Of a stretch of DNA of 64,000 bases, positions 17,498-58,589 are shown one piece after another. The stretch covers positions 29,320,001-29,384,000 of the forward strand of contig OX940864.1 of the NCBI GenBank assembly GCA_954871525.1, given 5' to 3'. The notes under the pieces are model-generated. The model saw only the letters and a program-made list of their open reading frames with translations. It was not told the DNA's origin and did no database searches. The first letter of the stretch is position 1. Every line of letters starts with the position of its first letter. Made by a program: the position numbers and the translations under genes. The stretch is from Parietaria judaica. Its lineage: Eukaryota > Streptophyta > Magnoliopsida > Rosales > Urticaceae.

Positions 17498-17708
17498 AGA
17501 CACGGCGAAAGCCCCATATCCGTTTTAATAAAGCTCAATGCAAAAGGCCAAGTCTACTATGTAGACTAACCTAATCTACGAATAAATTTATCTTTACGAA
17601 ATACTCTGAATGTTTTCCCGAAACTGCAAGGCAGATTACGCTAAAACTCAGGGGGTACTACGGTATATACCGTCCCTAAAAAAAAAAAAAAGGCTACGCG
17701 CCGAAGAC

Positions 17709-18022
17709 CTTCGCCAAGTAACAATAGGCACCGGCACACTCACCGGACTCATTCGCCAGGATAAACAGGCACTGGCACACACACCGGAACTCATTCGCCA
17801 GGATAAACAGGCACCGGTACACACACCGGAACTCCTTCGCCAGGATAAACAGGCACCGACACACACACCAAAACTCTTTCGCCAGGATAAACAAGCACCG
17901 GCATACACACCGGAACTCCTTCGCCAGGACAAACAAGCACCGACACACACACCGGAACTCCTTCGCCAGGATAAATACGCACCGGTACACACACCGGAAC
18001 TCCTTCGCCAGGTCACAATATG
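17709..18022 (+). repeat. 42-bp tandem repeat array, about 7.5 copies
   Basis: Units start at 17710, 17752, 17794, 17836, 17878, 17920, 17962 and 18004 (core TTCGCCAGGATAAACAGGCA), each 42 bp with few substitutions. Because 42 is divisible by 3, three frames stay open. The plus frame reads LRQDKQAPTHTPE per unit. The array lies between the pol remnant and the antisense gene, where Tat elements often carry tandem repeats. I regard the open frames as by-products. Confidence 0.9.
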
Positions 18023-18355
18023 CAGCCCAAACTTGTCAGATTAGCTACCCGGCGAGCAAAGGCATACAATCGTCTACGGACAACCTATACTACTTGTAGG
18101 TTAAAAAAGGGTGACGACCTTACAATCGCAGAAGAATGCACTCACAAGACTGCTACAACGCGCCACGACGCGCACATTCGACAAGCAAATGTATGAACAA
18201 GACCCAAAGTTCAAATTATACTAAATGCATAAATGTCATTAAACATGTACAAAACGAGAAGGTGAAACACGCTGAACAAACATGTTAGGGCAACGAGTAA
18301 GGCTAAAACAAAGCCTGAAAATGTCTATAAATCATAGAGGAAAAGAAAAGGAAAA
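18023..18355. other. Spacer between tandem repeat and antisense gene
   Basis: No coding sequence. It should hold the 3' UTR of the minus-strand gene (stop at 18356). Confidence 0.4.
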
Positions 18356-32343: not shown

Positions 32344-35300
32344 TGTTAGGCATTTGCCCTTAAACAATGTTTTATTTACCCATTGTAAAAGATTCTGACG
32401 TCACTCTTAATAAAGAAGGCACTTATTATGATAATATTTTCTATACTTGTTTATGTATAATTGAATGTTTATCCATAGTTCATAATGGAATGCAATAGCA
32501 ATCTATCATCACACCAGAGTCAATGTGAGGAAGAAATGATAGATACAATAAATGAACTAAAATGTATCCGTGACTTAATTAAGTAGTTGAGAGCCTCTTA
32601 ATTGATAAAGTCATTAATGCGACTAAATGGAGAAAATCCTATTCTGGATAGATATGTGTGTCATACCCATTAAGTGCATTACGTACGAAGTGTCTTTGTA
32701 CAGGATATGACTTGACTAAATTATAAAAGTTGCTTAACTAAGACCGTCCCTGACAACTTTGAATTAAGTCATAAAAGATGATCAAATGGTAATTAATCTA
32801 AATCCTGAAGTGCTTTTGAACCCTGACTGTTAGCTTGATTATTCTTTGATTGTAAGTTAAAGAACACAAAAAGACTGTGGTTCCCAACGCTGCTATATTG
32901 GGAACATGATAGTCGACAGGGAAGAGTAGCTTGATAACAGATATGGATATCACATAGCTTTTTACTAAGTCAAGATGATTCCCCGAACTATCGGCTGTGA
33001 GAAGTAGTACGGGACTCATGCGCAACTTATGACTCGTAATCGTAAGTGAGTTGTCTACAATACCACCGATGGAATTCAGGAAGAAAAGCACTAAGGAGCT
33101 AAACGGTAAAACACCCGCTCAAGTGTGAATCATCAAGTGAAAGATTAATCACTGGAATTTGATTATATCACTAGATACCTTTAAGATAAATAAAAAGGAA
33201 TAGATTATTTGCATCACTAAAGAGTACAGCTTTGGGTTTTTAGTGGAATAACACCGGAGTTAACGGACTGATCCGTTGGAGCTTAAGTGTTGTGGGTCCA
33301 TGGTCTCCAGGATAGCTCTGTAAAGGACAAATCGTACAATTAGGATATTTGTTATTCTAATTTATGATTGAACATTTGAAACTAAAGCTTGTGTCAAGTT
33401 TTGGAAAGTTTCAAAAAGTTGCGGCAAAAGTACCGAAAGTTTGCCCGGAAAATAGCTGATCGGAAAAAGTCAAAACTAGAATAAATTGTCAACATAAATG
33501 TTGTAGGAAATTTAATTCTAAGAGTTTTTTATTCTATGATTTTATGTCTAAGAGCAATAGAGAAAAAATTATGAATTATAGATCATAACATAATGCTATG
33601 TTAATTCATGAAAAACTACTTGGAGATTAAATTAATGGGCTAGGTCCATTGAGATTTAATCTTAGGTAATAATGAGAGAGGAAATTCGACCAAGCTTTGG
33701 TGGATAAGCCCATTAGGTATTTTCCTTATCATATTTTGTTAAATAATTAATTAAGTTAATTATCATGAAAAACATATTAGGTAATATTTGAATCATGGAA
33801 ATTGCCAAGCTTGATTACCAAGCAAGAGGTGGCGATTTTGAGCATGAGGAATTCGATATTTATATGTTAAGATAATTATAGATACTAATTGATTATATAT
33901 ATACAAATATGGTATTAACTTAAATCAAATAAATCATGTCATGAATATAAATTATGCATGAATCATGAAACTTGATTTAAATTTTTTAAATAAAGATTCA
34001 TATTGCATGAGAATTTAATATTGATTGAATCATGATATTATTTGATTGATAAGTTAATTACAAATAAGGAAAAGATTAGTAAATCACATGTCATCTTAAT
34101 TGATTTAATTGAAATTAATTTTTGGTTAAAAATAATGAAGAAATTCGACATCTCCTATTCATGGAAGGGAATGGAATTTCTTGGTATTTATTTTAATTGA
34201 AGAAAATATATTTAATTGATTAAATAATGAATAAATCAAATTCTACTTATCATGGTAAGTATTTGATTTTCTTGGTATTTATTTTAATCACATAAAATTA
34301 AATCTTTGGTATTTTAATCATCACATTTTTTATTTCTACCTATCATGGAAGGTTGGAAAAAGTCTTTGATTGATTTGTCAATAATACTAATTAAGAATGA
34401 GTGATTCACTTATCTATGGAAATTTGTGAGCATGGTTTTTCTATAAATACCAAGCTAGTTTCACATTTCCAAATATCACTCTTGTTGACGTGGTTTCCCA
34501 CCTCAAACAGTCAAGTGTGACTTGTGAGTGTATGATATTTGTTGAATGAACAATTTGGTGGAATTCTATCTCTCACGTTGCAAGCTCTCGATTCACTCTA
34601 GATATATATGTATATATATAAGCAATATAATAAAACGAGGGATTTTTTAGAGAGGTTCGTCCCAAGGCGGTAGTTGACTACGTCCTCTGTATGTTTATTG
34701 CGACAAATAGCATGAATGGATAGCTACAAACAACAAATCACGTTTAAAGCAAGAGAAAGGAAAAGAGAGAATGAAAAGAATACAACAGAATCTTCAAGTA
34801 GACATAAATGACGGGTAGAAATCTCTTGATGTATTCTCTCAGGGATGCGTGTGTGTTGATCCGAGATTGAGCTTGGTATTTATAGGCTTCAATTCTTCCC
34901 GTTGAACTTTCAGGAATCGTGGAATCCTCCCTCCGGGCTGACCGGGTTGATTGGCTTGTCTTGTGACACGTATCCCACGACTCCGTCTTCTTCATTGAGT
35001 TTGAATTGTGCCCGTTGAAGGCTTGACTTCGTACTTTTGGTCTTCAGCTGGTGTTTGAATTGAGATGACGGGTAGGATATGTGACGATCCTATCCTTATT
35101 CTCTTGGGGTAACGACGGACTGCATTTGGGCTATTGGGCCGAGTAGCTTCCTGCTATTTGGGCTTTATTCTTCTGAGAGATTGGGCTCCTCGAATGGGTT
35201 TTTATGAGTTAGAGATTTAATTCTTTTAAAGCCTTTTTATTTATTATTTGTAAATTTAATTAATTCACAACTTGGTACTTTATGTCATATTAAATAATGA

Positions 35301-35870
35301 CGAATTTGCACATCAACAACTCTCACATTACAAAATTCGAGCTCTCTCTCTCAAAGAAGCTCTCGAAATTCTCTCTCTCTCTAGAAAGTTTTAGCTTAGG
35401 GAAATTCGATTCCCAATAGCTCAGAAATCGCATAGGCTAGAAAGCAACGAAGTTCTGTCGACGAAGCCCACTCTTTGGGTACTACGAGTTCAAGAGAATA
35501 TCCCGGAAGGCTTTGGGAGTTTCCTTTGGTGTGAAGAAAGTCTTGCGGAAGCTCTGCCCAAATTTAGAAAGCGCAATGGAAGTCATCGTAAGAAACGAAG
35601 TACGGCCTTATGCATTGGGTAAATAAATGCAAACCATTTTATTGTTTTATTTATTTCCGGGACTAGAATTAATAATTGTGTGTTTATTGAATAACTAATT
35701 ATTTATCCGGTCGGATATCCGTTATCCCGGTGCTCGGTTGTACTAAAGGAAGTAACATCGGAAAGTGTAAAATGGGCCTTTCCGTGAAAATAATTTTAAA
35801 AAGGTTACCCTGATGGATCGAGGGCCCATCCCGAGATATGAAGGAGGGGACGATAATATAATTCCCTTCA
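32344..35870 (+). repeat. 5' LTR of the 32344 copia, 3527 bp
   Basis: Matches the 3' LTR from 32344 to 33807 and again from 35789 to 35870. The 1981 bp between are absent from the 3' LTR. That stretch includes the TATA box CTATAAATACC at 34441-34451 and the CT-rich leader, so it is genuine LTR sequence. Part of it (about 34600-35310, ending CACATCAACA) has its own LTR-like end and an opposite-orientation TATA (GGTATTTATAGGC at 34875) and may be a nested solo LTR. Confidence 0.75.
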
Positions 35871-37668
35871 ATTAGTATCAGAGCAAGGTTCGCGGATAAA
35901 TAATTACGTAATTTAAATGGTTTTCTTGTTTATAATTATTTTGGTGAAATTAATTTAATTTTTAAAATTGAAATATACAATTTCGGGTTTTTAAAATTAA
36001 TATTAAAAGTGGAAAATACCCAACCCGCAATCTTTGCAGATCGGATATTGGGCGGGCTAAAGTACAGCCCAACCCGTGGCTAAATAAGGCGAGCCCTAGG
36101 GCTAGCCCTTCCCGCGGAATACCGGGCTAGCGAGCCCACGGGCTGGGCGCTGGGCTAGTGTACCGTGGGAATTGGGCAGCGGCCTAGGGGCCTGCGTGTG
36201 CGCAGGTGCAGCCCACAACGCGTGGGCTGCGCGCGGTCCCTCGGTCATGGGCTCAAGCTTTGGCTCGATTGGCCCACGATTTTCTAAACTGGGTCGGATA
36301 TTTTTTTTATACGACCCAAACCCGTTAGATAAATAAATAATTATATTTATTTTTGAAATGGAATTTTATTTGCTTTTATGAATTGAATTGATTAATTTAT
36401 ATTAATTAATTAGAATTAAAATATGGATGATTTTTATTTTCGAATAAATTTCATTGTCTTATTTTATTTTTCATGAATCAATAAAATTAAAAATATGAAT
36501 GATAATTCTTCTTGAATAAGTATCATTGACATGTTTTTTGTTCTTTCATAAATAATAAATTTAAAATATGAATGATATGTATTTTATCATTGACATGTTT
36601 TTTATTTTTATAATATAATTAGTTTGCATTATGTGTGATAATTCTACGAGAATAAGTATCATGATAATTCTTTTCGAATAAGTATCATTAACTTGGTTTA
36701 TTTTTCATCATGGAAATAATTATATTGGAATCTATTTTCATAACACGCTTTTTTGGCGTATAGTGGCTATACGTAAAAAGGGTTATTATTAATATGTCTT
36801 AAACGGATAGATATAAATGAGGAACAATAATTTGGATTTTTTTATAAATGTCGGAAAAATCTCAGTTGTACGTTTCTTGTCTTAGGAAGAGGGAACCAAA
36901 AGTGGGGTCGGTTCACCATCCACTTCTGGGTGACCGGTTAGGACCCCTCCCATCGACCTAGAGAGCGTACTTCTCAACCTATCACTACCGATGTTTATTG
37001 AGCAAATAAACAAGGCTTTATTAGATATTACACTAGTAATTATATCGCCTAAAGATAAGAAAATTTAATAGGTTATTAAATGGGTGCTTATAATAAGTTT
37101 TTATAACTTAGTAATAAAACATTTTTCGAAAAACAATGACAAGAATAGTATATTAAATGGTCTCCATTATTGTTGTCACAACGTTTGCTTCACACACCGC
37201 ATTTGGCTGTCTTCGTATGGCGGACACAAGGACAGGTGTGCATCCGTGTGAGGTTTGACACCGTGAAAGCTCCAAAAGTATAAGGGGATCGGATGGTTCG
37301 TGAAAGTGATACTGTTAGATGTCTTCGTATGTATGTTCCATAAGGACGGCACTACCACGACGAATCCGAAAACAAAAAATAATGGGTTAATCTTGCAAGG
37401 ATGTTAGTCTTTCTGACCGTTCTATTGTGGTAGTTAATATTCATAGAGATTTCTTGGATTTCTTTTTCTGATTTTTAATTGAGTTTTAGACTGAAACTTA
37501 GTGTAACCAAACTACACGGTTGATCCCACTGCGTCATCTTCTTATGAAAATTCCATAAGGATGGCAACGACGTGTACAGTCGGTTAAATTATCACGAAAT
37601 AGTATTATGGGTTTTGTATATGTTTTTCCTTGATATGTTTGCATCATATTACTATTTTATAATATTTA
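35871..37668 (+). other. Primer-binding site and leader of the 32344 copia
   Basis: Begins with TTAGTATCAGAGC, matching plant initiator-Met primer sites (consensus TGGTATCAGAGC) with one change. A GC-rich block (36040-36260) rich in GGGCT/AGCCC words and AT-rich sequence follow. No gag is readable. It may have been lost by decay or lie in the part disrupted by the MULE insertion. Confidence 0.6.
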
Positions 37669-39187
37669 GGGATAATAACGGCAAAAGTATCCAACCTTTG
37701 GTCAACCTTCCTCCCGTGTACCCAACCTTTAAAATTGGCGGCATATATACCCAACGTGCGTTGACCGTGACTTTAGCATGAAACCGTTAACTTTTCCGTT
37801 AACACTCGCAATGTGGCCGTTAGCGGCAAAAATACCCAAACTTTTTTAAAAAAAAAATAAATTTTTTTAATTTATATATTTTTCTTTACTTGATTAGTGA
37901 TAATTACTTGAATTCCGAATACATGGAATAACACAAAAGTTAGTCAAAACATAAATTGATTTTTTAATGTGCTTGTATAACCTACATTTGTTGATAAAAA
38001 TCTTATTATTATGAGAAATTTTACACATAACATTACACAAAAATCGATCATGAAATCAATTATATCAATTTTATATTAATTTTTTTGGAGAAACTAATTT
38101 TTCGACTAAACCTAATCATGAATACAACAATTATGTAGTTAATTAGAGTCAAACTTTACACAAAAACCTAATCACATAGAGACGTTAATTAGCCGAGTTA
38201 ATGTCTTCACATTGCTTTAAATTATAAGTATGAACCGAATTAACATTTTAAAAAAAGGGTAATGGTGAAAATGATTATTCGGTTCATACTTAGAATTTTA
38301 AGCAATGTGAAGACATTAACTCGACTAATTAACGTCTATAAAATTATCCCCAATAACAAAATAAGACTTCGAAGTATGTTCCGACCAAAAAAAGACATAA
38401 AAATATAAGTAATGGTCATAACTTGAGAATATATGCGTTAAGAGTTTCATATATATATATATATATATAATATATTATATTATATAATATTTCTATGGAT
38501 GTCATACTATATATTTAGCTTAGTCCCCAAAATGTCTTACGATCAAAAGTGTCGTTTTAGGATTGTTTAGTCCCTAAAATCGTTTTTATCTGGGCCGTTG
38601 ATCTTGATCATCCAACGACCCAGAATGTAATGGTTTTAATTTTTTTTAAATAAATATCCGGATCCGGACATGTTCGGATATTTATTTATCTGTATCCGTG
38701 TTTTTCCGGACCCGGATATATCCGAGTTTTTTTTTTTAAATCCATATTAAATATCTAATAGATATTTTGGGGACTAATTTAGATAGTCAAATGGAACAAA
38801 AACAATATGATTAAGTTTTTGTTTGAAGTTTGACTACTGTCAATCTTAAATTAAATCTTAAATTAACTGTGTAATTGTTTTATTCATGATTAGGTTTAGT
38901 TAATTAACGTTTTGACTAAATTTTGTATTATTCCATGTATTTGGAATTCATGTAATTATCACTAATCAAGTAAAGAAAAAATATAAATTAAAAAAATATA
39001 TATTTTTTTTAAAAGTTTGGGTATTTTTGCCGCTAACGGCCACATTGCGATTGTTAACGGAAAAGTTAACGGTTTCATGCTAAAGTCACGGTCAACGCAC
39101 GTTGGGTATTTTTGCCGCCAATTTTAAAGGTTGGGTACACGGGAGGAAGGTTGACCAAAGATTGGGTATTTTTGCCGTAATTATCCC
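37669..39187. mobile_element. Mutator-like long inverted-repeat element, 1.5 kb
   Basis: GGGATAATAACGGCAAAAG...TTTTTGCCGTAATTATCCC with flanks TAATATTTA (37660-37668) and TAATATTTC (39188-39196), 8 of 9 matching. The arms pair over some 290 bp. A second, inner inverted repeat (38178-38240 against 38275-38335) gives a hairpin of about 60-bp stem. There is no coding sequence. The words gtgtacccaa and ggtatttttgccg are shared with the elements at 14975 and 59303. It is inserted in the copia interior, so it is younger than that element. Confidence 0.85.
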
Positions 39188-39252
39188 TAATATTTCTGAT
39201 ACATTCGCCTATATTAATGTTTAATAAGCTTCTTTATTAATGCCAGATAATA

Positions 39253-42200
39253 ATGTCAATCAATGTTTTCATGACCTCAATTGATGAACAAGATAATGTT
39301 GATTCTAAAATGACACATCTGTCTCAAAACTCCAAAAGGTACAATATTCTGGTAGAAAAGTCAAAGACCTATGAAAAACTGGCCTTGAGTGGTTCTTCAG
39401 ATAAACTCAATAAGGCATATCAGTTGCATCTAAAACCGTCAAATAAGAGAAAGAGATGCAAGAGAAACGAAGGAACTAAGTTCCAGATTGGAAGCATTCC
39501 TGACACCGAAGTGTTGGAAACAAATATTGCAGAGCACTCATCGTACAAATGGATCTTGGATTCAGGTGCAAACGACCATGCTTGTAATTCTCTTAAATCT
39601 CTCAATTCACTATCTATGGTCACTACCAAACCAACTTTAAAAGTGGGGAACGGAGAGTTCCTAGAAGCCGAAGCTGTGGGAAATCTGCGACTAACCTTTA
39701 GTTATAAATTTTTGTTTGTTAACAATGTATTTTATTATCAAAACATTTGTAGAAACATTCTCTCCGCATTTATGTTGTACAAACAAGGTTACACCCTAAA
39801 CTTTAGTGGCTCTGAATGGGTTATCACGAAAGATGGGGCATAAAACGGATTGTATGTACAACGGCCAGATGATCAACACTACATGAATGTAGAAATGTTT
39901 AAAGTAGCAGTTCCTAGGTCAATAAAGAAATCGAAGGTTGATAATGATTTTCAAACATATCTATGGCATCTTAGTTTGAGTCATATAAATCTATACAGGA
40001 TAAACAGGCTGGAAAAGGATGGACCCCTTAAAGAACTCACAATCGGTTCTATGCCTGTTTGTGAATCCTGTATAGAAGGTAAAATGACCAAGAGACCTTT
40101 TTCGGCAAAAGGACAAAGAGCCACTCATCCATTAGAACTTGTCCATACAGATGTATGTGGTCCTTTAAACATACAAGCTCGAGGATGGTTCGAATTCTTC
40201 GTCACTTTTATTGACGATTATTCAAGATATGGATATGTTTACCTCATGGCCAAGAAATCTGATACTCTCGGTAAGTTCAGAGAATTTCTAGTCGAGGTCG
40301 AAAACCAACTCGGACTATCATTGAAATGTCTTTGATCGGATAGAGGAGGAGACTACCTGGACTATGAGTTCAGTGACCTTTTAGTCGAAAAAGGAATTCT
40401 CTCACAATTGACTGCTCCTGGTACACCGGAACAAAATGGTGTTGCAGAAAGGAGGAACATGACCTTACTAGAAATGGTAAGATCAATCCTAAGCTACTCC
40501 TCATTACCCAACACCTTTTGGGGACATGCTTTAATGACGGCCGCCAACATTTTAAATGTGGTGCCATCAAAATCTATTTCCAAGACACCTTTGGAATTAT
40601 GGAATGGTAGAATACCAAATCTATGACATTACATAATATGGGGATGTCCCGCACATGTGCGAACAGGAAACAAAAATAAGCTAGAATCACGAACAGAAGT
40701 TTGTCTGTTCGTAGGTTATTCCAAAGAGACAAAGGGAGGTATGTTTTATAGTCCAGAAAGTAAAAAAGTGATTATCTCGACAAACGCTACCTTTGTGGAA
40801 GAAGACTATATAACAAAATTCAAACCTCAAAGTAAAGTAGTACTAGAGGAACTGTCATGTGACAAAATCACCACTTCACCAACAGTGATTGTTGATGAAG
40901 AGAGTGCAGAAACCACGGTCCCAAATCAGAACACTGGGGTACTCAGACGTAGTGGGAGGTTCAAGAAACAAATTGAACGCTACAAGCACCGACTGGAAAA
41001 CAACTTAGCTGTCAAGGACACTAGTGTTGATGACCCATCATCCTATAAGGAAGCAATGATGGATTCTGATAAAAGGGAATGGCAGGAAGCCATGAACCTA
41101 TAGACAGAATCAATGGATTCTAATCAAGTCTGGGAACTTGTAGACCTGCCGGATGGGTTTAGACCTATTGGCAACAAATGGGTCTATAATAGAAAAAGAG
41201 CAGGGGAGGGAAAGGTTCAAACCTTCAAAGCTAGATTAGTGGCAAAGGGTTTCACCCAGAGAGAAGACATTGATTACGAGGAAACTTTCTCTCCTGTCGC
41301 TATGCTTAAGACCGTTCGGATACTCCTAGCCATAGCATGTTGTCTCAATTATGAGATTTGGCAGATGGACGTCAAAACCGCATTCCTGAATGGGTATCTT
41401 AACGAAAATATCTATATGGAACAACCAAAAGGGTTCCTGCAGCAAGGTCAGGAAAAGAAAGTTTGCAGAGTTCTGAAATCCATTTACGGATTGAAGCAAC
41501 CTTCCAGATCTTGGAATCTAAGGTTTGACAAGACTGTCAAGACCTTCGGATTCACTCAAAATATCAACGAAGCCTGCGTTTACCAACTCGTTGATGGAAA
41601 ATCAGTGGTTTTTATTTTTCTATACGTCGACAACATACTTTTGATCGGAAACGATGTGAATAAACTGTCGGGCGTAAAGGTTTGGTTATCGAATCAATTC
41701 CAAGTAAAAGATTTGGGAGACGCCACTTATGTTCTTGGGATCCAGATTTTCAGGGATCGCGATGAGGCGCATTCCCTATGCTTCAGCCGTAGGAAGTCTG
41801 ATGTACGTTATGCAACGTACAAGACCAGACATCTTCTACGCAGTGGGAGTTGTGAGTAGATACCAAACTAACCTCGGTATGAATCATTGGACTGCAGTGA
41901 AGAACATTCTCAAGTATCGGAGAACGAGAGAGTATATGCTAGTGTATTCAGGTAACGAAATGAATCCACTAGGCTACATTGAGTCAGACTTTATGTCTGA
42001 CCGGGATGCGAGGAAATCGACATCTTGTGCAGTGTACACCCTAATCGGTGGAACGGTATTTAGGAGAAGCGTAAATCAGACCTGTATCGCAGATTCCACA
42101 ATGGAAGCTGAGTACGTAGCAGCCTATGAGGCCGCTAAGGAATCAGTCTGGCTTAAGAACCTCTACTTGGAACTAGGAGTAGTTCCAGATTTAGACGGAC

Positions 42201-42451
42201 CTATGACACTGTACTGTGATAACAGTGGTGCAGTGACTAATTCTAAAGAGCCTAGAAACCATTCCAAAGGGAAACATATAGAAAGAAAGTACCATCTCAT
42301 CAGAGCGATAATACATCCCAGTGATGTTCGGGTTATGAAAATAGCATCAGCGGACAATCTGGCAGATCCATTTACGAAGACACTGCCGGAGAAAATATTC
42401 ATGAGGCATTTGGATAGTATGGGTCTTAGAGATATGAGTCATCTTCTTTAA
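39253..42451 (+). pseudogene. Copia pol: protease, integrase, reverse transcriptase, RNase H
   Basis: One frame from 39253 to about 41760, with stops at 39841 (TAA), 40333 (TGA), 40624 (TGA) and 41101 (TAG). The protease motif is WILDSGANDHACNS. The integrase has WHLSLSHINLYRI...CESCIEGKMTKRPF and the core VHTDVCGPL, IDDYSRYGYVYLM and GTPEQNGVAERRN. The reverse transcriptase has WVYNRKRAGEGKVQTFKARL and QMDVKTAFLNGYL, and the catalytic box is YVDN instead of YVDD. Near 41750-41770 the end of RT is missing (probably 40-60 codons) with a frameshift. RNase H continues to 42451 (IPYASAVGSLMYVM, STMEAEYVAAYEAAKE). It is inactive. Confidence 0.9.
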
Positions 42452-42466
42452 GTGCAAGTGGGAGAT

Positions 42467-43994
42467 TGATAGGCATTTGCCTTTAAACAATGTTTTATTT
42501 ACCCATTGTAAAAGATTCTGACGCCACTCTTAATAAAGAAGACATTTATTATGATAATCTTTTCTATAGTTCTTTATGTATAATCGAATGTTTATCCATA
42601 GTTCATAATGGAATGCAATTGCAATCTATCATCACACCAGAGTCAATGTGAGGAATAATTGATAGATGCAATAAATGAACTAAAATGTATCCGTGACTTA
42701 ATTAAGTAGTTGGGAGCCTCTTAATTGATAAAGTCATTAATGCGACTAAATGGATAAAATCATATTCTAGATATATATGTGTGTCATACCCATTAAGTGC
42801 ATTAAGTATGAAGTGTCTTTGTACTGGATAGGACTTGACTAAATTCTGAAAGTTGCTCAACTAAGAGCGTCACTGACAACTTTGAATTAAGTCGTAAAAG
42901 ATGATCAAATGGTAATTAATCTAAATCCTGAAGTGATCTTGAACCCTGACTGTTGGCTTGATTGTCCTTTGATTTGTAAGTTAGAGAACACAAAAAGACT
43001 GTTGTTACCAACGTTGCTATATTGGCAACATGATAGTCGACAGGGAAGAGTAGCTTGATAACAGATATGGATATCACGTAACTTTTTACTAAGTCAAGAT
43101 AATTCGCCGAATTATTGGTCGGGAGAAATAGTACGGGACTCATGCGCAACTTACGACCCGTAATCGTAAGTGAGTCGTTTACAATACCACCGATGGAACG
43201 GTAAAACGGTAAAACGCTATGAGGCTAAACGGTAAAACGCTTGCTCAAGTGTGAATCATCAAGTGAAAGATTAATCACTGGACACCTTTAACATAAAAAA
43301 AAGGAATATATCATTCGCATCACTAAAGAGTACAACTTCGGGTTTTTAGTGAAATAACACCGGAGTTAACGGACTGATCCGTTGGAGCTTAAGTAATGTG
43401 GGTCCATGGTCCCCAGGATAGCTCTATAAAGGACAAATCGCACAATTAGGATATTTGTTATCCTAATTTATGATAGAAAATTTGAAACTAAAGCTTGTGT
43501 CCAATTATGGAAAGTTTCAAAAAGTTGCGGCAAAAGTACCGAAAGTTTGCCCGGAAAATAGCTGATCGGAAAAAGTCAAAACTAGAATAAATTGCCAACA
43601 TCAATGTTGTAGGAAATTTATTTCGAAGAGTTTTTTCTTCTATGATTTTATGTGTAAGAGCTATAGAGAAAAAGTTATGAATTATATATCATAACATAAT
43701 GCAATGTTAATTCAGGAAAAACTACTTGGAGATTAAATTAATGGGCTAGGTCCATGGAGATTTAATCTTAGGTAATAATGAGAGAGGAAATTCGACCAAG
43801 CCTTTGTGGATAAGCCCATTATTTATTTTCCTTATCATATTTTGTTAAATAATTAATTAAGTTAATTATCATGAGTAATATATTAGGTAATATTTAAATC
43901 ATGGAATTTGCCAATAATTTTAAAAAGGTTACCCCGATAAATCGAGGGCCCATCCCGAGATATGACGGAGGGGACGATAATATAATTCCCTTTA
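42467..43994 (+). repeat. 3' LTR of the 32344 copia, 1528 bp, internally deleted
   Basis: Aligned with the 5' LTR except for a 1981-bp gap whose junction lies near 43913 (GCCA|ATAATTTTAAAAAGG). It lacks the TATA box and leader. Substitutions against the 5' LTR are frequent (for example TGTTAGG/TGATAGG and GACGTCACTC/GACGCCACTC), so the insertion is not recent. Confidence 0.85.
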
Positions 43995-52220: not shown

Positions 52221-52427
52221 GTGTCTAAAATATATCCTTTCAAATTTTAATAACGAATCAATTTGACGATTCATATTAATTAGTCATTTAAAAATTTAGA
52301 TTATGAAATTCTAGTCTGGAAAAAAAATATGAATCAAAATTTTGAATTACGTTTGTTTAGGAATTTATGAACACAGTAAAATTATTCTATATTTATCGTG
52401 TTAACAGCATTAGCATAAAGTTATTAC

Positions 52428-52668
52428 TGTTATAAATTCACTAACTTTGCACCTTGATTTTAAGTGGTAAGAAATTTGGTGAGTGGTGTGTTTTATGGAA
52501 AAGATGATGGAGAGAAGTAAGATGTGAGTGAGATAAATGTAAGTGTAGAAAATGTGAGAGGTGAATTTTATTCATCCACTTAGGGGGTATTTATAGGAAA
52601 TTTGGAGCATACAATTGTTGACTAATATTGTGTGAAAATAAATGAGCATTTCACATTTATTCATAACA
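52428..52668 (-). repeat. 3' LTR of the young copia
   Basis: TGTTATAAATTCACTAAC...TTTATTCATAACA in plus orientation, identical to the copy at 58344. On the minus strand it carries TATAAATA (52595-52588). The purine tract (complement of CTCCCCCTTGG, 52669-52679) abuts it. Confidence 0.93.
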
Positions 52669-52797
52669 CTCCCCCTTGGAATGTTCATTACAAGAATTAC
52701 GTGTTCATGCTGCCTCATTAAAAACCTTACTAGGAAAAACCCAGTGGGATAAAAACCATAGTAAGGAAAAAAGAGTGCAGTCACGTAAAGCTCCCCC

Positions 52798-55700
52798 TCA
52801 TGCTGACATGGGTGATAAATTCTGTAGTCTTCGCATCCCGATGTCATGAACATGTTTTCTGAAAGTTGAAGTAGGGAGCGCCTTTGTGAAGAGATCCGCC
52901 GAGTTTTCGCTGGAACGAACATACTGGATACTGATGACATTGTTCTTTTCTAGTTCTTGAGTAAACGAGAAAAACTTCGGAGGAATATGCTTTGTTCTGT
53001 CGCTTTTGATAAATCCTTCCTTCATCTGAGCAACACACGCAGCATTATCTTCGTAAAGTATGATGGGATCATCATTTGTTAGAAGACCACTTGTGGTTCT
53101 GATATGCTGTGTCGCGGATCTAAGCCACACGCACTCACGGCTAGCTTCATGTAGTGCGATGATCTCAGCATGGTTTGATGATGTCGCTACGAGTGTCTGT
53201 TTCTGGGAGCGCCAAGAAATTGCAGTCCCTCCGCAGGTAAACACATATCCCGTTTGGGATCTCCCTTGATGTGGATCTGACAAGTAACCTGTATCTGCAT
53301 AGCCAATCAAAACTGGTTTCGTATTGTTAGGGTAAAATAATCCTAAATCAATTGTTCCTTGAAGATAACGAAACACATGTTTAATTCCATTCCAGTGTCT
53401 TTTAGTAGGAGTCGAACTGAATCTTGCTAATAAATTAACAGCAAAAGATATATCTGGCCGAGTACAATTAGCAAGGTACATAAGAGCTCCAATTGCACTG
53501 AAATATGGTACTTCTGGACCAAGAATCTCTTCGGATTCCTCACATGGACGATACGGATCCTTTCGTACATCAAGGGACCTCACGACCATTGGGGTACTTA
53601 ATGGATTTGATTTATCCATATTGAATCTCTTTAAGATTCTTCTTGTGTAATTTGATTGATGCACAAGTATCCCGCTTTGGAAGTGTTCAATTTGCAAACC
53701 GAGACAATACTTTGTTTTCCCAAGGTCTTTCATTTCGAATTCTTTCTTTAAGTAAGATATTACTTCCTGGATCTCTTCATTGGTCCCAATGATATTTAAA
53801 TCATCAACATAGACAGCGATAATCACACAACCAGATGTTGTTTTCTTGATAAAAACACAAGGGCAAAGAGGGTCGTTGGCATATCCCCTTTGTAATAAAT
53901 ATTCGCTTAGGCGGTTGTACCACATGCGTCCGGATTGCTTTAACCCATAAAGAGACCTTTGCAATTTGATTGAATATCTTTCTCTGGGTTTTGAACTTGA
54001 TGCTTCAGGCATTTTGAATCCTTCGGGAATTCTCATGTAAATATCAGTATCAAGTGATCCGTATAAATAAGCGGTAACAACATCCATGAGGTGCATATTT
54101 AGTTTCTCATGAACAGCTAGACTGATCAAGTATCTGAATGTAATTCCATCCATGACAGGAGAATATGTTTCCTCAAAGTCAATTCCGGGTCTTTGAGAAA
54201 AACCTTGTGCAACAAGTCGAGCCTTGTATCTCACAATCTCATTTTTCTCATTTCTCTTTCGTACAAATACCCATTTGTATCCAACAAGTCTCACATCTTC
54301 AGGTGTGAGCACTATAGGCCCAAAAACATTGCGTTTGTTAAGTGATTCTAATTCAACATCAATAGCCCTTTTCCATTCAGCCCAATCGCGTCTATTTTTA
54401 CATTCGGTAACAGACCGTGGTTCAGGATCCCCATTATTTTCGTCCATGACATCGCATGCCAAATTGTAACAGAGTGCATCATCGATGTCCATATTTCGGT
54501 TCCATATTATACCTGTAGTGGCATAATTAATCGAAATTTCTAGATTTTCCTCATTGCGTATTTCTTCAGGAATACGTTCCTCCATATTGGGGTCATCTTG
54601 TTTATCTGCTCCTTTTCTTTTTCGAGGATTTTTATCTTTGGAACCGAGTGGTCTTCCACGCTTCAGGCGTGTTGTGATTTCATGAGTGACATTGTTTTAA
54701 ATTTGCCCTTTTGGAATTTCAATTTGAGCAGGAGCATTTTCAGCTGGTATATGAGATTTAGTCACTCTCTTTGTGTCCGTAAATGCATCAGGAAGTTGAT
54801 TTGCTACATCTTGTAAATGCAAAATTCTTTGAACTTTTCCTTCACAATCTTTTGTGTAAGGATCAAGATGCAATAATGTTGGTACAGACCATGTAATTTC
54901 TCTTTCCAGCTGTTTTCTTTCTCCCCCTAATGCTGGGAAATTTTCTTCATCAAAGTGGCAATCAGCAAAACGAGCTGTGCAAATATTCCCAGTTTGAGGT
55001 TCAAGGTATTTAACAATAGATGGGCTTTCAAAGCCTACATAAATACCAAGACTTCTTTGTGGCCCCATCTTTGTTCTTTGGGGTGGTGCAATAGGCACAT
55101 AAACAGCACAACCAAAAATCCTTAGATGGGATATATTTGGTTCTTGGCCGAATACAAGTTGCACTGGGGAGTATTTATGATATGCACTTGGTCTGATGCG
55201 AATTAATGCCGCAGCATGTAATATTGCATGACCCCATACCGAAGTAGGAAGCATTGTTCTCATTATCAATGGTCTAGCAATAAGCTGGAGGCGCTTGATC
55301 AATGATTCAGCCAGACCATTTTGTGTGTGAACATGAGCAACAGGATGCTCGACATCAATCCCAACTGACATACAATAATCATCGAATGCCTGGGATGTGA
55401 ATTCACCGGCATTATCAAGTCTGATTTTCTTGATCGGATGATCGGGAAATTGAGCTCGCAATTTGATTATCTGAGCGAGTAATTTAGCAAATGCCATATT
55501 GCGGGTTGATAATAAACACACATGTGACCATTTGCTAGAGGCATCTATCAATACCATGAAGTATCGAAATGGTCCACACGGTGGGTGAATTGGCCCACAT
55601 ATATCACCTTGAATACGCTCAAGGAACATAGGTGATTCTGTTTCAACTTTTCCCGGTGAAGGTCTTATGATTAATTTTCCAAGAGAACAAGCTTTACAAT

Positions 55701-56280
55701 GGAATATTTTTCCTTGAGGGATCTTCTGGTCCTTCAATGGATGTCCATGTGTATTTTCAATAATTTTCCGCATCATGGTTGAACCAGGATGACCTAGGCG
55801 GTCATGCCATATGGTAAATATTGGAGGTTTGGCAACTACCATATTTGATTCAATTGCACTTATATACGTAAAATGCAATCCTGTGTGGAGCATTGGTAAT
55901 TTTTCAAGTACGTATTTCTTCCCCGATTTATGCATTATAATAAACATATATTTCATGGCATTCTCAGTTGCAGACTGAGTATCAAATTCATGAGAATATA
56001 TATCCTTGAAACTCAACAGGTTTCTTTTAGATCTTGGGGAGAATAAGGCATTGTTTACGGTAAACATGGTGCCATTTGGTAATGTAAAATTCGCTTTACC
56101 AACTCGTTCAATCAGATCTACAGGACCTGATATTGTATCCACACTGGCTTGTGTTGATTTTATGTTTGAGAAAAACTTTTTGTCCTTCAATATTGTGTGT
56201 GTCGTTCCACAGTCGAGTATACAAAATTCTCCAGCTTCACGATTAGCTTTGTCCATTTGAAAAACTTTAACTAAAAACAA
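52798..56280 (-). pseudogene. Copia pol: protease, integrase, reverse transcriptase, RNase H; one stop codon
   Basis: A single frame of about 1160 codons interrupted only by TAA at 54699-54697, between integrase and reverse transcriptase. Protease is CILDCGTTHTIL (Cys where Ser is usual, Asp kept). Integrase has the WHDRLGHPG...HCKACSLGK zinc site and core motifs GDICGPI, IDASSKWSH, LDNAGEFTSQ and QNGLAESLIK. RT has WVFVRKRNEKNEIVRYKARL, LMDVVTAYLYGSL and intact YVDD. RNase H has IGYADTGYLSD and SNHAEIIALHEASRE. The first ATG is at 56256, and the frame is open upstream to a TTG at 56280. It lies 148 bp after gag in another frame. If the stop were read through, the enzyme set would be complete. 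Confidence 0.92.
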
Positions 56281-56428
56281 AACACAAATTTTGATAAGAA
56301 AGGTAATTAATTAAACATGAGCATTAGTCTATTACACACCTTAAAAATCATGACATATTCTAAAAAGAAAAGACAAACAAACATCGGACCATTGGGCTTC
56401 ATTCCCAAAAGGAATTACATAGTTCATA

Positions 56429-57475
56429 TTAGTTTCCACTAGTCGCTTGTTCAGCAAAATCGCCAACTGTGTCAATGAAATCACCATTGAAGTCGGATGC
56501 TTCGAGATGAGTGGATTCGTTATTGTCAATAAAGTTGACTTCTTTCTCTTTCCCTTTCCCCTTCATGGACTCTTGGTAGAGTTTGCATAAGTGTGGTGGG
56601 GCTCGGCAAACTCTTGACCAATGCCCTTTAGTGCCACATCTGAAACAAGTGGTTTCAAAGCCTTTTGGGGAGATCATCTCTTTTCCCTTTTGAGAAGGGT
56701 CATCGTGGCTCCTCCCGTGTTGCTGTTTTTTATGATAGTAGTTAGCAGACTTATAAGAGGGATTATAACCACCCCGTCCACGTCCGTAACTACGACCTCG
56801 ACCTCGCCCACGACCTCGGCCTCGCTCTCGACCCTGAAAATAGTTCTTGGGCTCAGGCTCGTCAGAGTTGATAGCGTTTGCTTCAGGAAGCGCTTTTGAG
56901 CCGGTCGGGCGAGATTGATGATTTTTCATCAGCAACTCATTATTCTTTTCTGCGATAAGGAGACAAGCAATTAGTTCAGAATACTTTTGAAAACCCCGTA
57001 CACGATATTGTTGCTGTAAGGTTACATTTGATGCGTGGAAAGTAGAAAAAGTCTTTTCCAGCATTTCAGCGTCAGTTACCGTTACCCCACAAAATTTTAA
57101 GTGGGTCACGATTCTGAACATTGCAGAATTATAGTCTCCGACTTTCTTGTAGTCTTGGAACCTTAAAGCGGTCCATTCATCGCGAAAAATGGGGAGCATT
57201 ACATCCCTTTGGTGATCGTATCTTTCTTTGAGATTTTTCCACAGCTCACTTGGATCTTTCACAGTGAGATATTCATTTTTGAGGCTTTCGTCAAGGTGTC
57301 GACGAAGGAAGATTAAAGATCTCGCCTTGTCCGTCCTTGACGATTCGTTTACCTCCTTGAGTGTCTCAAGAAGATTCATTGATTCCAAGTGCATCTCAAT
57401 ATCCACTGTCCAAGGCATGTAATTATTGCCAGTGATATCAAGAGGGCTGAATTCAAGCTTCACAAGATTTGACAT
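56429..57475 (-). CDS. gag: Copia Gag, intact
   Basis: Nucleocapsid-capsid protein of about 348 residues starting MSNLVKLEFSPLDITGN (an in-frame upstream ATG at 57508 would add 11 residues). An N-terminal UBN2/gag-like domain has YMPWTVDIEMHLESMNLLE and DPSELWKNLKERYDHQ. An Arg/Gly-rich RNA-binding stretch follows (GRERGRGRGRGRGRSYGRGR), then the zinc knuckle CFRCGTKGHWSRVC, a perfect CX2CX4HX4C. The stop is at 56429. No break was seen, so the protein could be made from this copy. Confidence 0.9.
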   Translation of the reverse strand: MSNLVKLEFSPLDITGNNYMPWTVDIEMHLESMNLLETLKEVNESSRTDKARSLIFLRRHLDESLKNEYLTVKDPSELWKNLKERYDHQRDVMLPIFRDEWTALRFQDYKKVGDYNSAMFRIVTHLKFCGVTVTDAEMLEKTFSTFHASNVTLQQQYRVRGFQKYSELIACLLIAEKNNELLMKNHQSRPTGSKALPEANAINSDEPEPKNYFQGRERGRGRGRGRGRSYGRGRGGYNPSYKSANYYHKKQQHGRSHDDPSQKGKEMISPKGFETTCFRCGTKGHWSRVCRAPPHLCKLYQESMKGKGKEKEVNFIDNNESTHLEASDFNGDFIDTVGDFAEQATSGN

Positions 57476-58343
57476 AGTGGTAACTAACATGAAAATAAAA
57501 TAATTCATTAGATTTAATTCAAAATATAAAAGTCTACAAATATTGTAAATAATAAAGCAAGATACATGAATACAACCATCTTAAAGGAAAAATAAAATTC
57601 CTCCGGTGTAATATGAAAAATGAAAATACTAACATTAAATACAAGGATCATTATGGCTATAAAAACTAACATTAGTCTAGTCATTTTTCGGCTAAAACTT
57701 GGAGAGAAAATATGAGGTAGAATAAGAGATGTGAATTTTGTATGGTTTGATAAACTTGTATTTATAGTGTAAAAACTAGCCGTTTATAGCCGTTATATAG
57801 CCGTTGGAAATACACAAACATAATGTAATTAAATGCTATAATTAGGTTATTGATGATATGTCATAAAATGAGATGTAAAAATAGTCAAACATTATACATA
57901 TATAATATTAATCATAAGCATATTGAAAATGAAGTAGTTAAAACTAATCTCAATAATATCATTTTACTATAAGGTGGCAGAGCCTCCTGTATATAATAAT
58001 TTGATATTACTTGAAGATAATTTTTTTTAGATGTAAATCACATCATTTTATTATAAGGTGGCATAGCCTTCCATTGTATAATAATATGATGTTATACATA
58101 AGAAAGTTAAATATTATAAATCATATTACCATAAGGTGGCAAAGCCTCCTGTGTATGGTAAGATGATGTTATTCATAAGAATAATTAATTATCATAGATC
58201 CCATCACATTACTATAAGGTGGCAGAGCCTCCTGTATATAGTAATATGATGTTGTACAACGATAATAATAATTATAAAATTTTCAGTCCACAGTTTAATA
58301 TACCGTGTTCTGAGCTTACCGTAGAGTGATCGTGCTGATAACG
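57476..58343 (-). promoter_or_regulatory. Leader of the young copia: primer site and structured 5' UTR
   Basis: From the 5' LTR end, the minus strand has primer site TTATCAGCACGA (58340-58329) and then about 860 bp of AT-rich untranslated leader before gag. Four direct repeats fill 57955-58251 (separate entry). The promoter is in the LTR (TATAAATA, 58511-58504). Confidence 0.8.
57955..58251 (-). repeat. Four tandem hairpin units with covarying stems
   Basis: Units at 57955-58008, 58041-58091, 58120-58167 and 58202-58251, spaced 79-86 bp. Each has a central AGGTGGC-(triloop)-GCCTCCT-like stem capped by AGA, ATA or AAA, extended by an outer stem whose two arms differ between units yet still pair: TTATTATA/TATAATAA, TTACCATA/TATGGTAA and TTACTATA/TATAGTAA. 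Outer ends ATCA/TGAT also pair. The pairing holds on both strands, so the genomic RNA (minus strand) can fold the same way. Confidence 0.85.
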
Positions 58344-58584
58344 TGTTATAAATTCACTAACTTTGCACCTTGATTTTAAGTGGTAAGAAATTTGGTGAGT
58401 GGTGTGTTTTATGGAAAAGATGATGGAGAGAAGTAAGATGTGAGTGAGATAAATGTAAGTGTAGAAAATGTGAGAGGTGAATTTTATTCATCCACTTAGG
58501 GGGTATTTATAGGAAATTTGGAGCATACAATTGTTGACTAATATTGTGTGAAAATAAATGAGCATTTCACATTTATTCATAACA
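58344..58584 (-). repeat. 5' LTR of the young copia
   Basis: Identical to 52428-52668. It contains the TATAAATA box in minus orientation (58511-58504). The primer site follows immediately on the minus strand. Confidence 0.93.
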
Positions 58585-58589
58585 ATTAC

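Follow-up and report, generated by a model that had tools for sequence, protein, structure and literature searches.

The 64-kb window, the whole stretch of Parietaria judaica DNA that was analysed (OX940864.1, 29,320,001–29,384,000), contains a Ty1/copia retrotransposon on its minus strand; relatives of this element were sought in the 538.7-Mb genome. The long terminal repeats (LTRs) are identical over 241 bp, in keeping with the original prediction of a young copia element. The 5′ LTR is directly followed by a primer binding site, CGTTATCAGCACGA, which we take to be complementary to tRNA-Ile. Separate frames encode gag and pol, with about 150 nt between them. Four hairpin units lie between the primer site and gag, and the coordinates thus bear out the placement that had been claimed for them. 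The features, in the order in which the element is read, are listed here.

52428..58584, minus strand: Ty1/copia element that fits the Bianca type, with LTRs, a 5-bp direct repeat and domains
52423–52427 and 58585–58589: 5-bp direct repeat ATTAC, flanking both ends of the element
58344–58584, minus strand: 5′ LTR, 241 bp, identical to the 3′ LTR
58330..58343, minus strand: primer binding site, directly after the 5′ LTR, of half-tRNA-Ile type as described in passages of PMC6317226
58320..58343, minus strand: first leader exon piece, 24 nt, ending in CTCTACG, retained in spliced copies
57484..58319, minus strand: putative leader intron, 836 nt, GTAAGC...GTTAG, precisely absent from spliced integrated copies
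58202..58251, minus strand: hairpin unit 1, inside the leader intron
58119..58168, minus strand: hairpin unit 2, inside the leader intron
58041..58091, minus strand: hairpin unit 3, with an irregular inner stem (GGAAGGC), inside the leader intron
57957..58006, minus strand: hairpin unit 4, inside the leader intron
57476..57483, minus strand: second leader exon piece, 8 nt, TTACCACT, before the gag ATG
56429..57475, minus strand: gag, with a copia-type gag domain and a zinc-knuckle-like motif; stop at 56429
52798..56280, minus strand: pol, with integrase and reverse transcriptase domains; the frame of this copy is broken by an in-frame stop
52428–52668, minus strand: 3′ LTR, 241 bp, identical to the 5′ LTR

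The primer-site type and the layout of gag and pol as two gapped open reading frames fit membership of the Bianca lineage, for which the passages of Neumann et al. 2019 on which we draw (PMC6317226) give a half-tRNA-Ile primer site and two open reading frames with a mean gap of 172 bp; those passages mention neither a leader intron nor a hairpin array, and the word ‘leader’ is absent from the text. The best named relatives of the gag are plant sequences. The LTR starts with TGTT and ends with AACA, like the Rosaceae TGTT and AACA subfamilies, which are assigned to the Ale lineage in a passage of PMC5659011. The gap between gag and pol (56281–56428, minus strand) ends in a U-rich tract and an acceptor-like TTTTTAG, and is possibly a second, facultative intron that joins gag to pol. 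Elsewhere in the window, another copia-like element (32344–43594) has long direct repeats, 94–95% alike, around broken pol frames (39253–42451), and a 42-bp tandem repeat (17705–18040) lies inside a 144-codon open frame.

The presence of the four hairpins is confirmed. The units, of about 50 bp, had been described as spaced 79–86 bp apart, and their starts are separated by 84, 78 and 83 bp. On the RNA strand, they share an inner stem of GGAGGC/GCCACC, an A·A mismatch and a 3-nt loop, as claimed, apart from the irregular unit 3. The outer arms originally quoted were correct for units 3, 2 and 1; those of unit 4 are TTATTATA/TATAGTAA, with one U–G wobble. An 18-base core pattern, with at most 3 mismatches allowed, is matched 4 times in the 64 kb, compared with 0.09 expected. 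The folding check that had been proposed for the minus-strand RNA gave −95.2 kcal/mol for the 341-nt hairpin block against a shuffled mean of −56.9 (z = −7.5), and none of 100 shuffles folded as well. When the 868-nt leader was scanned in 100-nt windows, the strongest z values (−3.0 to −4.5) all fell within 57944–58293; outside this region the lowest was −2.1, at 57643–57544. Folded singly on the sense strand, units 1 (z = −3.7) and 2 (−4.6) are strong, unit 4 is moderate (−2.2) and unit 3 is not significant, because its z is only −1.3. No match to a known RNA family in the 64-kb window reached an Rfam gathering score (the best match below it, MIR1120, had 28.9 bits against a cut-off of 86).

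In the leader of the window’s element, a GTAAG is found 24 nt in, and in that of L001 it is 44 nt in; a U-rich tract with TTAG at its end precedes gag by 8 nt and 10 nt, respectively. GTAAG occurs 74 times in 128 kb with both strands counted. L001 is a contig (NZ_QPKJ02000023.1) of a Solirubrobacter assembly that encodes a plant-type copia element, and is probably contamination. Its gag was the query for a set of gag copies comprising the best 150 of 1,159 candidates by score, and thus not a random sample, in 18 of which the primer site is joined to gag with the GT-to-AG stretch exactly gone (11/107 in the window’s clade and 7/43 in other Bianca families). Classification was based on fetched loci for 70 copies, on 51-base pieces for 44 and on a neighbouring leader match for 36, all of the latter, including the window’s own copy, being classed as intron-bearing. 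L135, the primer site of which exceeds the changes allowed by our script, was classed by eye as spliced, and L139 and L181 as intron-bearing. For other families, ‘intron-bearing’ denotes that no primer site lies within 110 nt of gag, and not every such copy has a clean acceptor. Clade membership was set by the bases before gag (≤3 changes), independently of the hairpins.

The joined leader of the window’s family is 32 nt in length (24 + 8), which matches the splice-site prediction. Nine clade copies (L109, L110, L114, in which the primer site is mutated, L118, L119, L128, L140, L164 and L169) have the junction CTCTACG-TTACCACT-ATG and two (L123 and L130) have CTCTACG-TTATCACC-ATG; their intron-bearing counterparts read CTCTACG/GTAAG (some GTATG)...GTTAG/TTA, in which slashes mark the boundaries. 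In other families, spliced L085, L092, L093 and L135 read ATCGAGTTATGG, compared with ATCGAG/GTATT...CTTAG/TTATGG in intron-bearing copies, and in spliced L077, L084 and L106 the bases TGTGCA or TTTC directly follow GAG or CAG. Exact loss of a GT-to-AG stretch occurs in about five groups, as expected because reverse transcription of spliced RNA gives such loss. On the basis of these sequence comparisons, copies lacking exactly this part of the leader argue that it is almost certainly a spliceosomal intron of around 836 nt with the hairpins inside. Bianca families other than the window’s clade also carry the leader intron.

Of eight spliced clade loci, five carry a complete 5′ LTR, 241–247 nt in length, and their flanks differ; the script did not delimit the other three. 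The LTRs of L109, L110, L118, L119 and L128 are 97.5–99.6% like that of the window and 95.1–98.4% like one another, and there is just one pair, L110 and L118, in which L110 is closer to its partner than to the window (L114 was left out of this comparison); these distances would fit several integration events. Between L123 and L130 the LTRs agree to 98.8%, yet neither is more than 61% like any sampled intron-bearing LTR, so these two copies may derive from a single event, and they perhaps represent an intronless line that replicates. The leader introns of L112, L120, L121, L122 and L124 are around 93% like that of the window and several of the LTRs are far more diverged in an LTR tree; LTR exchange by recombination is possible in these subfamilies. 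Inside the intron, at 57690–57820 (minus strand), three AACGGCTA-like repeats (57805, 57794 and 57784) are followed by a TATAAATA box (57767). This promoter-like stretch could yield a shorter transcript without hairpins; as TATAAATA occurs 27 times in the window, the box may be there by chance.

The distribution of the hairpins is narrower than that of the intron. Using a covariance model built from the four window units, we found units in 20 of the 21 clade loci that were fetched and bear the intron (12 loci have four units, 4 have five, 1 has three, 2 have two and 1 has one); no unit was detected in L117, a clade member. The original prediction had named repeated insertion of an unrelated palindromic MITE as the observation that would overturn it. 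We reject this reading, as the unit recurs in the leaders of these 20 loci and, within the window, the model finds it only in the array (its antisense hits fall on those hairpins again). A second unit type, the arm of which differs yet still pairs (CATCATTTTATTA/TAATAAAATGATG), occurs in some subfamilies. All four cores are present in 30/30 near-identical copies, which vary too little to serve as covariation evidence.

The model found nothing in 41 fetched loci of other Bianca families (34 intron-bearing; E up to 1), which gives no support to the array as a feature of the whole lineage. No comparable array appeared in a structure and tandem-repeat scan of 14 leaders from other families, a weak control because the array carrier L124 itself reaches only −2.6 per 100-nt tile; repeats of 21–57 bp were present in 4/14 leaders (L071, L072, L081 and L082), one AT-rich L081 window had a z of −5.5 and a few windows had −2.1 to −2.8. 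L001 has a different array of small hairpins after its primer site (z = −2.46), which we had considered as a sign of a conserved position and now regard as a separate gain. Among genome contigs, L001 was the only relative found. No relatives were found in viral contigs (35 matches there were without a gag or pol match), among plasmids (searched with gag) or among phages (searched with the first part of pol).

Paired change in the outer stems had been read as selection on RNA structure. Five columns vary in each arm of the 15 outer pairs, and these columns are each other’s partners (hypergeometric 1/3003). In the four window units, 55 of 60 cells pair and 3 pairs have changed on both sides; in simulated neutral drift from a perfect hairpin, at least 3 double-changed pairs arose in 0.25% of runs and at least 55 paired cells in 4.9%. 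The drift simulation, the core-pattern count and the comparison of the fold with shuffles rule out a chance origin of the array. The shuffle control gives weaker, suggestive support for the four units alone, the observed number of double-changed pairs being reached in 17/500 shuffles, the covariation score in 14/500 and the percentage paired in 73/500.

The claim of paired change held up when relatives were included. Thirteen units, chosen by hand to span unit types and subfamilies, have 4 double-changed pairs and 13 double-changed cells, and shuffles give 5.0 such cells (0/500). Their covariation score is 0.139 versus 0.081 (0/500), and 92.3% of their cells pair versus 89.4% (0/500); the counts of double-changed pairs (129/500) and pair types (487/500) were no higher than in shuffles. 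Slid controls gave at most 2 double-changed cells. The inner stem of the same units is 97.4% paired without double changes, and it is the outer stem that changes pairwise. As related sequences may exceed such shuffles without selection, we consider the support good, not final, and the pairing is probably under selection. Strand tests were mixed: G–U outnumbers A–C among the exceptions (24 versus 12 in 45 distinct units, one of 46 being too short to tally; 2 versus 0 in the window), and the antisense strand folds better in 4 of 6 unit types tried.

These patterns bear on whether the array has a function at all. An inverted-repeat unit could have been tandemly duplicated, and template switching between its arms (quasi-palindrome correction) or a recent common origin could account for their likeness. 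Unit number varies, some arrays contain nearly identical neighbouring units, one L137 unit resembles a fusion of units 1 and 2, and an unrelated tandem array lies in the same region of L001, all of which would suit such an origin. So would the comparison between subfamilies, in which the hairpins are barely better conserved than the remaining intron (89–98% versus 93–97% like the window), and less well conserved in L121, L122 and L124 (89–90% versus 93%). However, within the array the spacers are only 46% alike compared with 66–88% for the hairpin parts; the paired changes are found at isolated positions, one pair at a time and with a U–G intermediate, and not in copied tracts; and the core mismatch has been retained, although correction of one arm by the other should erase it. 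We regard an array without function as conceivable but doubtful.

We tentatively favour the reading that the hairpins act on unspliced RNA, as a protein-binding tag that sets its fate. Transcripts would begin in the LTR; if the first transcribed base is assumed to lie 32 nt past the beginning of the LTR TATA box, the spliced leader has a length of 168 nt and contains no AUG, compared with 26 in the intron. Splicing would use a donor just past the primer site and an acceptor that precedes gag by 8 nt, and would remove the hairpins together with these upstream AUGs; the short leader of the spliced RNA would serve gag translation; because that leader is free of AUGs and the intron holds so many, gag would best be made from spliced RNA. 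As proof of splicing, the AUG-free exon was set aside as too weak, as 34% of shuffled exons are also AUG-free. Unspliced RNA would be the genome and would retain four, in some relatives five, hairpins with a near-constant core (GGAGGC-loop-GCCACC). A repeated hairpin of constant core that occurs only in unspliced RNA would be best explained as a multivalent tag for a putative protein governing that RNA, through splicing restraint, nuclear export, or assembly and dimerisation. Spliced copies make up 10.3% (11/107) of the hairpin clade and 16.3% (7/43) of other families in the score-ranked sample (P = 0.40), an indirect measure; the direction fits a tag or splicing restraint, and the numbers are not significant. 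Counting against a tag, other Bianca families keep the intron without the array, and the conservation of the hairpins between subfamilies is only slightly better than that of the rest of the intron.

The original prediction offered packaging, dimerisation or translation control as the role of the array. As the array is inside the leader intron it would be absent from spliced gag mRNA, the translation of which the hairpins are thus unlikely to control; packaging or dimerisation could still apply. In the strict form of the latter, Gag would bind the hairpins and so select unspliced RNA for particles, like the retroviral signal between donor and gag. The same order of parts (primer site, donor, hairpins and gag), a constant core in several copies and a zinc-knuckle-like motif in Gag that scores slightly below the Pfam cut-off speak for this. 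However, hairpin-less spliced RNA was reverse transcribed and integrated in 11/107 scored clade copies, a share not significantly below that in other families, which leaves a strict packaging signal unsupported, and other Bianca families manage without the array; we consider such a signal unlikely. A DNA-level element, consisting of repeated palindromic transcription-factor sites or an intronic expression enhancer, is improbable: the intron adjoins the LTR promoter and the palindromic repeated motifs of Sireviruses have been compared with transcriptional activators (passages of PMC2829016), but 15 outer pairs, paired changes and a kept core mismatch exceed the needs of dimeric sites, and the motifs of Sireviruses are located close to env and within the 3′ LTR instead of in a leader intron.

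Little is known about how a single transcript is shared between translation and replication in plant LTR retrotransposons. In this genome, spliced and unspliced forms of the same families are integrated next to one another, with and without the array; they offer a natural record on which genome selection and splicing control can be tested, and the precise leader intron can now be searched for in Bianca elements of other plants. Among the matches listed in the openly licensed PMC literature, no title concerned a Bianca leader intron or such an array. According to passages of a review (PMC12786077), plant LTR elements are generally without introns, with Ogre and EVADE as exceptions. Passages of PMC3735527 describe distinct RNA pools for BARE1 of barley, the spliced RNA favouring Gag; the BARE1 intron, of 104 nt, lies within gag and adds a stop, and attempts by the authors to amplify DNA copies derived from spliced BARE RNA were unsuccessful. 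Both are copia elements for which spliced RNA is proposed to supply Gag, but the intron of the window’s family is in the leader and its spliced copies are found integrated. Sireviruses, too, are plant copia elements in which a palindromic motif recurs in non-coding regions, although its copies lie elsewhere in the element and have a CGG–CCG core, and the passages describe no RNA pairing test (passages of PMC2829016). In mouse, the IAP and musD export elements are structured RNAs that help unspliced transcripts to leave the nucleus (passages of PMC12786077). Export of unspliced RNA is one possible role of the hairpins, and the comparison here is one of role.

In the retroviral leader, the splice donor is upstream of the packaging region. 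The element described here resembles that leader in the order of its parts and in having a structured region only in unspliced RNA; it differs in that its spliced copies integrate, in that other Bianca families are without the array and in that the function of its hairpins is a proposal. It is a possibility, although one we hold with considerable doubt, that Bianca-type copia elements reached a retrovirus-like leader plan independently, with a primer site, a donor, a multi-hairpin mark present only in unspliced RNA, an acceptor and gag. The mark of this clade would then be a tandem array of one protein-binding hairpin with an evolving copy number, and the processed copies would record how often RNA lacking it is replicated.
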